Source: Sphingorhabdus sp. EL138
GTDB taxonomy: Bacteria; Pseudomonadota; Alphaproteobacteria; Sphingomonadales; Sphingomonadaceae
DNA: 64,000 nt
Direction of reading: 5' to 3'
Assembly: GCF_945862485.1 (NCBI RefSeq)
Contig: NZ_CAMAYF010000007.1
Location: forward strand, 1-64,000
A program made the translations under genes and the position numbers. The notes below the pieces were generated by a model that did no database searches, was not told the origin of the DNA, and saw only the letters and a list, made by a program, of their open reading frames with translations. Numbering within the stretch: the stretch's first letter is position 1; the number at the start of each line of letters is the position of its first letter. This document shows positions 62,550-64,000 of the stretch, piece by piece.

Positions 62550-62668
62550 GCTTGAGCCAAAGTTGTAAATTATTCAGTGCAGCATGAACCATGCCAATTG
62601 CAAAATGCTTCGCTATTCACTAGCTATCATACAGAAAACAAAAGCATCATTGCAGGCGGATATTGAAT

Positions 62669-63448
62669 ATGGAAAGCATAACGGCCACCCCACCTGCTGC
62701 TGATGCGACCACTGATGCGGGTATGCAATCGGGGTTGGGCGTTTTGTCAATCGCCAAAAGCTATGACAAGCGCGCCGTTCTGACGGATGTCTCGCTGTCC
62801 GTGGCAAAGGGCGAAGTGGTCGGCCTGCTTGGTCCCAATGGCGCGGGCAAGACAACTTGTTTTTACTCGATCATGGGGCTGGTTAAACCCGATAGCGGCC
62901 GTATCACGCTCGATGGCGCTGATATTACCAAGCTGCCAATGTATCGCCGCGCCATTTTGGGGCTTGGCTATCTGCCGCAGGAAACGTCTATATTTCGCGG
63001 GATGACGGTTGAACAGAATATCAGCGCGGTTCTCGAAATGTCGGAACCCGACGCCGAATCGCGCGATGAGCGGCTGGAAAAACTGCTGGACGAATTTGGC
63101 CTGACCCGTTTGCGTAGCGCGCCTGCCATGGCCTTGTCTGGCGGAGAGCGTCGGCGGTGCGAGATCGCCCGCGCACTGGCCGCGAACCCGTCGATCATGC
63201 TACTTGACGAACCCTTTGCCGGCATTGATCCAATTTCGATCTCTGACATTCGTGATCTTGTTAAGGAATTGAAGACCCGAGGCATTGGCGTGCTCATCAC
63301 GGACCATAATGTGCGGGAAACATTGGATATCGTTGACCGTGCCTGCATCATTTACGGCGGTCAGGTTCTATTTGCCGGATCACCAGAGGCGCTGGTCGCC
63401 GATCCCAATGTCCGCCGCCTATATCTGGGCGAAAGCTTTTCAATGTGA
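62669..63448 (+). CDS. lptB: LPS export ABC transporter ATP-binding protein LptB
   Basis: 259 aa. Walker A GPNGAGKTT, Q-loop GYLPQETSIFRGMT, signature ALSGGERRRCEIARAL, Walker B IMLLDEPFAGIDP and switch histidine ITDHNVRETL. YLPQETSIFR and FAGIDPISI are LptB-specific. It drives LptFG. ATG 62669 has AGGCGGA upstream; TTG 62663 is possible. The extra N-terminal about 25 residues are Ala/Thr-rich and of unknown use. Confidence 0.95.
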   Translation: MESITATPPAADATTDAGMQSGLGVLSIAKSYDKRAVLTDVSLSVAKGEVVGLLGPNGAGKTTCFYSIMGLVKPDSGRITLDGADITKLPMYRRAILGLGYLPQETSIFRGMTVEQNISAVLEMSEPDAESRDERLEKLLDEFGLTRLRSAPAMALSGGERRRCEIARALAANPSIMLLDEPFAGIDPISISDIRDLVKELKTRGIGVLITDHNVRETLDIVDRACIIYGGQVLFAGSPEALVADPNVRRLYLGESFSM

Positions 63449-63470
63449 TTTGGAGGATATGACTACACTC

Positions 63471-63707
63471 TAGGCCGTGGACCCACAAATATCACCTTCG
63501 AGGCACCAAAATGGCAAAGATATCGCAGCAAAATGTCCGCCGCAGGCAGTTATTCTGCCTGCAAGGGCATTTTGCTGTGAGATCGAAGCCATTTTGGCGT
63601 CCTTCGGATTTAACCCATTTTGTCCATAACTGCGTTGGCAAAGCGCGCCTTGCACTGAACAAAATGGCCTCAAACCTCGAAGGCTATATTTGTGAGTCCA
63701 CGGCCTA
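63471..63707. mobile_element. 237-bp MITE-like element with inverted repeats and nested hairpins
   Basis: The ends are about 31-bp inverted repeats (63473-63503 and 63675-63705) with some 28 matches, starting GGCCGTGGAC. A TA flanks each end, as in Tc1/mariner-IS630 target duplications. Inside is a 92-nt nested hairpin (63506-63597; arms CCAAAATGGC/GCCATTTTGG, CAGCAAAATG/CATTTTGCTG, GCAGGCAG/CTGCCTGC, loop TTATT) and a second hairpin (63615-63667; CCATTTTGT/ACAAAATGG). CAAAATG occurs six times in both orientations. No transposase is encoded. Confidence 0.75.
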
Positions 63708-63712
63708 ACTTC

Positions 63713-64000
63713 ATGGCATTAGCTCCGCGCCTCGACCTTCGCCAAAGCCAGTCGCTGGTCATGACGCCGCAGTTACAGCAAGCGATTAAGTTATTGGCGC
63801 TTTCGTCTCTCGAAATCGAAGCTTTCATCACCGAAGAGATCGAACGCAACCCAGTGCTTGATGCGGGCGGCGGCGATTCCATATCAGACACGCCGCTTGA
63901 TGAATTGGTGCAAGCTACAATAACAGAGAGCAACGAACGCGGCAGTGACGAGATATTGGGCAATGACAGCCATGCCGCCTCTGACGCGCTTGACGTCGAT
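63713..64000 (+). CDS. rpoN: RNA polymerase sigma-54 factor, N-terminal part (cut by the window edge)
   Basis: 96 residues are visible. They form the region I activator-interacting domain: MALAPRLDLRQSQSLVMTPQ, then LQQAIKLLALSSLEIEAFI and EEIERNPVLDAGGG, the glutamine-rich hallmark of RpoN. It follows lptB, the normal alphaproteobacterial order. ATG 63713 has no SD; an in-frame GTG at 63692, inside the repeat and 8 nt after AAGG, could add seven residues. Confidence 0.93.
   Translation, partial: MALAPRLDLRQSQSLVMTPQLQQAIKLLALSSLEIEAFITEEIERNPVLDAGGGDSISDTPLDELVQATITESNERGSDEILGNDSHAASDALDVD

Follow-up and report, generated by a model that had tools for sequence, protein, structure and literature searches.

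A dispersed MITE-type element with IS5-family-like ends and a covarying core in the lptB-rpoN gap of Sphingorhabdus sp. EL138

The DNA analysed (the window) comprised positions 1 to 64,000 of contig NZ_CAMAYF010000007.1 of Sphingorhabdus sp. EL138, read on the forward strand. At its right end, lptB (ABC transporter ATPase; 62663-63448, + strand) is followed by a 237-bp insert (63471-63707) that occupies the gap to rpoN (63713-64000, + strand; sigma-54 activator-interacting domain), which runs off the window and whose start codon lies 5 nt downstream of the insert. To the left of the insert, a GGAGG read from the sequence (63452-63456, + strand) precedes a mini-ORF of four codons (ATG ACT ACA CTC TAG; 63459-63473, + strand), the stop of which is provided by the first bases of the insert.

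The insert is bounded by terminal inverted repeats of 33 nt (left, 63471-63503, + strand; right, 63675-63707, - strand) that are complementary at 30 of 33 positions and carry TA at both outer edges; a preliminary description of the locus had given repeats of about 31 bp with the same TA edges. The outer ~20 nt of the left repeat form a type A, insertion-sequence-like end (TAGGCCGTGRACYCA..) and its inner ~10 nt are specific to the element; the two copies of the duplicated target are the TA at the start and the TA at the end of the insert. Hairpins of 92 and 53 nt, also described previously, were found in the predicted + strand fold at 63506-63597 (hairpin 1) and 63615-63667 (hairpin 2), with a small hairpin around TCCTTCGGA (63599-63609, + strand) as the linker between them. 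Hairpin 1, with covarying helices and conserved unpaired purines, is a candidate structured RNA on the + strand, and pair asymmetry in hairpin 2 favours the - strand. Because hairpin 2 is longer in the 267-bp form of the element, the window copy has lost 30 nt. The minimum free energy of the folded insert was -132 kcal/mol on the + strand (z -13.55) and -138.6 kcal/mol on the - strand (z -13.76), and none of 200 shuffles was as stable on either strand. The word CAAAATG starts exactly at the six positions reported for it (63507, 63529 and 63660 forward; 63568, 63590 and 63616 reverse). CAAAATG/CATTTTG occurs 25 times across the 64-kb window, six of these in the insert; the six are mostly a product of the nested hairpin arms and therefore do not represent six independent motifs. 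No Pfam match was found in the two ORFs of the insert (65-67 aa), consistent with the view that it has no protein of its own.

The insert is a member of a dispersed, non-autonomous (MITE-type) family with a full length of ~267 bp. Five other copies were located in the host's own 2.18-Mb assembly (C5:63295, C1:249874, C5:99884, C3:110989 and C11:47201), together with a bare 42-bp end-to-end palindrome (C13:6141-6182) that consists of the two element ends alone and is an extreme internal deletion form. Relatives carried up to dozens of copies per genome, and in one (G026) a single end type gave 65 forward and 63 reverse matches (<=1 mismatch). Ends were paired at 133 of 151 places, and the other 18 were left out. 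Wider searches were performed with a covariance model of hairpin 1, stricter filters being used in the family-wide and class-wide runs. Of 397 genomes sampled in the family, 47 contained the hairpin-1 core, spread over 23 of 96 genera (the window's genus and 22 other sampled genera). In a class-wide draw of 385 genomes only two contained it, the window's own being one of the two. In a genome from another family of the same class (G677, locus L313), a 266-bp copy was observed whose 26-nt ends match perfectly, possibly reflecting horizontal transfer.

Length was ~268 bp in most copies across genera. Matched terminal repeats were present at all of 28 further loci, 22 of which were called at 266-271 bp, five at 4-12 nt short (inferred from the flanks) and one at 279 bp; three of the 28 were from the same genus, and one (L286) seems to be a copy already among the 79 distinct insertions described below. 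Shorter deletion forms measured, for example, 207, 181, 163, 84 and 42 bp, and the 237-bp window copy is also one of them. On plasmids, a full-length homologue at 70% was found in Sphingopyxis alaskensis, a partial match in Sphingopyxis indica and further element matches on two plasmids of Sphingobium yanoikuyae; no match to the element was found among phages. Queries with the ends matched one Bradyrhizobium and one Sphingopyxis plasmid, and gave short matches in 22 plasmids, mostly of Rhizobium and two of E. coli. One locus taken for a transposon (L183, ends 1153 bp apart) was rejected on inspection, being a lone end, an ordinary gene and then a normal element.

Sites lacking the insert were identified in relatives. 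The lptB-rpoN gap was searched in 40 relatives, and both flanks were found on one contig in at least 23 genomes of the same genus; in these listed genomes the flanks lay 5-117 nt apart and the insert was absent from every one. Nine of the empty sites were inspected, of which eight held one YTAR-like TA and one read TGA; the filled site in the window has TA on both sides. At the site of the C5:99884 copy, the flanks lay within ~10 nt of each other in 15 of 15 relatives searched, overlapping by exactly 2 nt in four (G040, G033, G006 and G034) and by 3 nt in two (G019 and G026), and in G040, G033 and G006 this site read ...GATTA/AAC.. with a single TA. One relative (G009, L354) carried a short piece of an element end (TAGGTCCTGATCCTA) at the same target, which may be a remnant or may stem from a separate insertion that was mostly deleted. 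Among distinct insertions bounded by TA on each side (79 in all), a pyrimidine preceded the TA in 73 and a purine followed it in 76, and YTAR was likewise present at 18 of 18 of the further loci with TA on both ends. The target is YTAR, and its TA is duplicated on insertion.

The dispersed copies in the host and its relatives, the empty sites with one TA fewer and the TA duplication strongly support the earlier proposal of a non-autonomous mobile element. The condition named there as its refutation, occurrence at this locus alone in all relatives, does not hold. The copies and empty sites also bear on whether the insert is a host regulatory RNA of the lptB-rpoN leader, a reading to which its position 5 nt before rpoN lends itself. 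The insert is absent from this gap in the 23 relatives with both flanks listed and is present at many unrelated sites, and the leader reading is extremely improbable.

The ends of the element resemble those of IS5-family insertion sequences. An IS5-family end was matched at 17-20 of 20 nt by 66 of 89 distinct element ends, and the best match averaged 16.8 of 20 nt; in 50 shuffles of the ends the corresponding mean was 11.9 and never exceeded 12.9. The insertion sequences that share the outer 20 bp of the element are 825-886 bp long. Paired ends were found at 27 of 60 DUF4096 transposase loci, some of the 27 being copies of one insertion sequence; 23 begin with TAGG and four are doubtful. Among the loci in the genus, L193 (841 bp) is flanked by ends such as TAGGCCGTGTACTCATAAAT, and the DUF4096 loci L218 and L219 are flanked by TAGGGTCAGGACTC..; these ends are close to both end types of the own-genome copies. 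Four ORFs of two such insertion sequences matched NF033580 (IS5 family), three above the cut-off and the fourth just under it (100.7 against 110 bits), and these ORFs also matched DUF4096 or DDE_Tnp_1. From size, DUF4096 and the two ORFs, we infer that the partner insertion sequences belong to the IS427 group. In the accessible part of a survey of Paracoccus, IS5/IS427 elements are 832-865 bp long, mostly make a 2-bp duplication and in most cases contain a frameshift motif and two ORFs (PMC3281130).

A DUF4096 match was present in 14 of 41 genomes of the genus and in 19 of 28 element-bearing genomes outside it (28 of 42 such genomes were searched). None was found in the window's own draft assembly or in the element-rich genomes G006, G015, G019 and G034, so a resident mobiliser is not evident there. 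Comparison of the element core with the inside of the 27 partner insertion sequences returned one 17-nt match (E 0.56) and no real similarity. IS5-family copies directly adjoin element copies at two places in G026 (C1:45780-46349 and C34:16494-17063), which suggests that the element ends may be preferred targets. Exact matches to the 20 outermost nt of the type A end occur in plasmids of Mesorhizobium, Sinorhizobium and Rhizobium (L189-L191), beside other sequence, and are perhaps insertion-sequence ends there; each of the three regions showed one type A end and no second end was seen, and in one of them an annotated IS5 transposase lies ~1 kb away, its frame holding stops.

These matches displace the Tc1/IS630-like origin proposed in the preliminary description. 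A MITE of Tc1/IS630 transposons would account for the TA target-site duplication, but the target is YTAR and the ends (TAGGGTCAGGACC or TAGGCCGTGAACTC) match IS5-family elements. The one IS630-like gene seen between element ends (L187:4039-5479, split over frames) is flanked on both sides by element sequence, that is, nested within an element copy. This origin is thus largely refuted and is given very low probability. A REP/REPIN-like palindrome that depends on a Y1 (RAYT) transposase would likewise be palindromic, multi-copy and often intergenic, but Y1_Tnp was found in three of 41 same-genus genomes (G022, G025 and G029), none of which is among the genomes rich in copies (G006, G015, G019, G026 and G034). 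Moreover, the element has a target duplication, and to our knowledge Y1 enzymes make none; we regard such a mobiliser as hardly credible. Near the Y1_Tnp gene of G022, the paired ends flank a DUF4096 gene instead.

Conservation within the element was determined from an alignment of 55 copies (25 from other genera and 30 representatives of the genus set, one of these 30 being a Sphingopyxis plasmid copy; the three same-genus loci among the 28 further loci were left out). The outer repeat (19 bp) was the least conserved part, with 56-57% mean identity, yet these variable ends stay complementary to each other. Mean identity was 69% in the hairpin-1 helices, 79% at hairpin-1 unpaired bases, 82% in the linker, 70% in the hairpin-2 stem and 64% in the hairpin-2 loop region. 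Left and right end variants were linked within a copy (33 AC/AC, 22 TA/TA, 9 mixed; Fisher p=8e-9), to which shared descent also contributes. The usual logic of a MITE is inverted here, the core being conserved and the ends variable.

In the core, paired changes were frequent. Double-sided changes were present in 17 of 39 pairs of hairpin 1 among 20 sequences (shuffle mean 6.2; 0 of 500 shuffles reached 17), and sliding the partners destroyed this signal, the slid controls being far lower. With 55 copies, double changes were found in 32 of the 39 pairs of hairpin 1 and in all 14 outer pairs of hairpin 2. Unpaired hairpin-1 bases A47, A48, A52, G69, C70, A94, A95, G112, A117 and A118 were each retained in 50-55 of the 55 copies, and positions 46, 71, 82, 83 and 84 vary.

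Mispairs were counted with helix registers fixed and pairs chosen without any fold. The G·T:A·C ratio was 141:18 in hairpin 1 (G·T is in excess in 51 of 55 copies and A·C in one; 17 columns versus 3, p=0.003), 28:29 in the terminal repeats, which are strand-symmetric, and 9:58 in hairpin 2 (A·C is in excess in 43 of 55 copies and G·T in two). Few sites carry the hairpin-2 asymmetry, the columns being just 3 versus 7. As copies are related, pair and mispair counts are not independent. Over + strand consensus pairs the ratio was 160:23, and 71:10 in sequences outside the definition of that consensus. The + strand gave the better fold for hairpin 1 alone in 29 of 30 sequences and for the whole element in 12 of 30; the whole element thus shows no strand preference. 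When only the hairpin-1 pairs shared by the two strands' folds were counted, the ratio was 6:9, and the pairs of the - strand fold gave 7:16, because most of the G·T-bearing stem is missing from the - strand fold. Column tests gave weaker results when pairs were taken from folds (p=0.013; 0.065 and 0.078 with 55 copies). The window insert gave two Rfam microRNA-family matches far under their gathering scores, and 10 element loci gave no Rfam match at E<=0.05.

These patterns suggest that hairpin 1 is a structured + strand RNA carried by the element, as upkeep of a DNA palindrome would not conserve mismatches and would treat G·T and A·C alike. The earlier proposal of a carried structured RNA is supported by covariation, conserved unpaired bases and the one-strand tolerance of G·U in hairpin 1. 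It is less certain for the core as one RNA: hairpin-2 mispairs lean to the opposite strand (9:58), and one + strand RNA would not account for all of the core. The same IS5/IS427-type MITE could instead have a core without RNA function, its palindromes kept by fold-back template switching or gene conversion, where copying from arm to arm would give paired changes without selection. The linked end variants, the strand-symmetric mispairs of the terminal repeats and the opposite leanings of hairpins 1 and 2 are all consistent with such copying. However, it would erase mismatches, and in hairpin 1 many bases that do not pair hardly vary between genera; G·T and A·C should then also be equally frequent, in contrast to the ratio seen in hairpin 1; and the near-constant length also argues against it. 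We consider fold-back copying of a functionless core rather unlikely.

Neighbouring genes were surveyed at 55 insertions with a crude ORF caller, by which 41 were intergenic and 14 inside ORFs. Convergent neighbours were the commonest class (16). The orientation of the element relative to neighbouring genes showed no bias (++ 10, -- 8), and a role inside host mRNAs is therefore not favoured. In a raw count, the insertion point coincided exactly with a stop codon in 18 of the 55 (12 on the left side, 10 on the right, 4 of them on both). A stop is rebuilt at insertion because TAR stops are part of YTAR and each end of the element starts with TAG. At lptB-rpoN, the target was the stop of the four-codon ORF just upstream of rpoN, and the element restores TAG. 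A four-codon ORF of the ATG ACG GAA AAY TAA type was seen at the same place in nine of nine relatives inspected (L055-L063), and in the window and these relatives it is preceded by GGAGG or a similar G-rich stretch; it is possibly a leader or a case of translational coupling. If transcribed, the insert would loop out on its end-to-end stem, leaving GGAGG and the rpoN start close together.

The reading we favour, at a probability of about 0.58, is that of a MITE-type element of ~267 bp (237 bp here) moved in trans by IS5-family (IS427-like) transposases, with a core selected as folded RNA. Transposases encoded elsewhere would recognise its ~20-bp ends, move it in trans, insert it at YTAR and duplicate the TA. 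Its TAGG ends would recreate a stop codon, so that insertion at the end of a gene would do little harm, which suggests how genomes tolerate dozens of copies. The core would be transcribed and kept by selection for its fold, hairpin 1 being preserved on the + strand by paired changes and conserved purine mismatches, and both ends would change as a matched pair, following different insertion sequences. A bolder reading, offered tentatively and at less than even odds, is that of a mobile structured-RNA element spread through Sphingomonadaceae, a selfish ncRNA of near-constant length that swaps matched ends to follow IS5-family transposases, the conserved heritable unit being the RNA and not the ends. 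Hairpins 1 and 2 may act from opposite strands, and the RNA might benefit the element that carries it, for instance if it binds or recruits transposase.

No description of this family was found in the literature searched, most subscription journals being outside reach. Bacterial MITEs are usually viewed as insertion-sequence remnants held together by their ends. An IS5/IS427-type MITE family with a conserved core, probably at the RNA level, and variable but matched ends is unusual, and RNA-like covariation over 23 sampled genera makes it a testable case of a non-autonomous element that has a selected RNA and switches transposase partners. As far as the sources were accessible, the Brucella repeat Bru-RS, with IS711, is likewise an alphaproteobacterial palindromic repeat tied to an IS427-type element. 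Bru-RS repeats are ~100 bp long, and we know of no covariation or conserved RNA core in them. In the part of the source available, Chunjie of Geobacter uraniireducens (178-235 bp) and Correia elements are, like the present element, short and without an ORF, with terminal repeats, stable hairpins and many, often intergenic copies (PMC10969869). Unlike these, as there described, the present element has a conserved core with variable ends, a length of ~268 bp across genera and strand-asymmetric covariation. The IS427 group (Paracoccus ISPaes2 and IS1248, from the accessible part of PMC3281130) shares with it the 2-bp TA duplication, and the ends of the ~840-bp, two-ORF partners match its ends; it differs from that group in having no transposase gene and a core unlike the interiors of the 27 partner insertion sequences.
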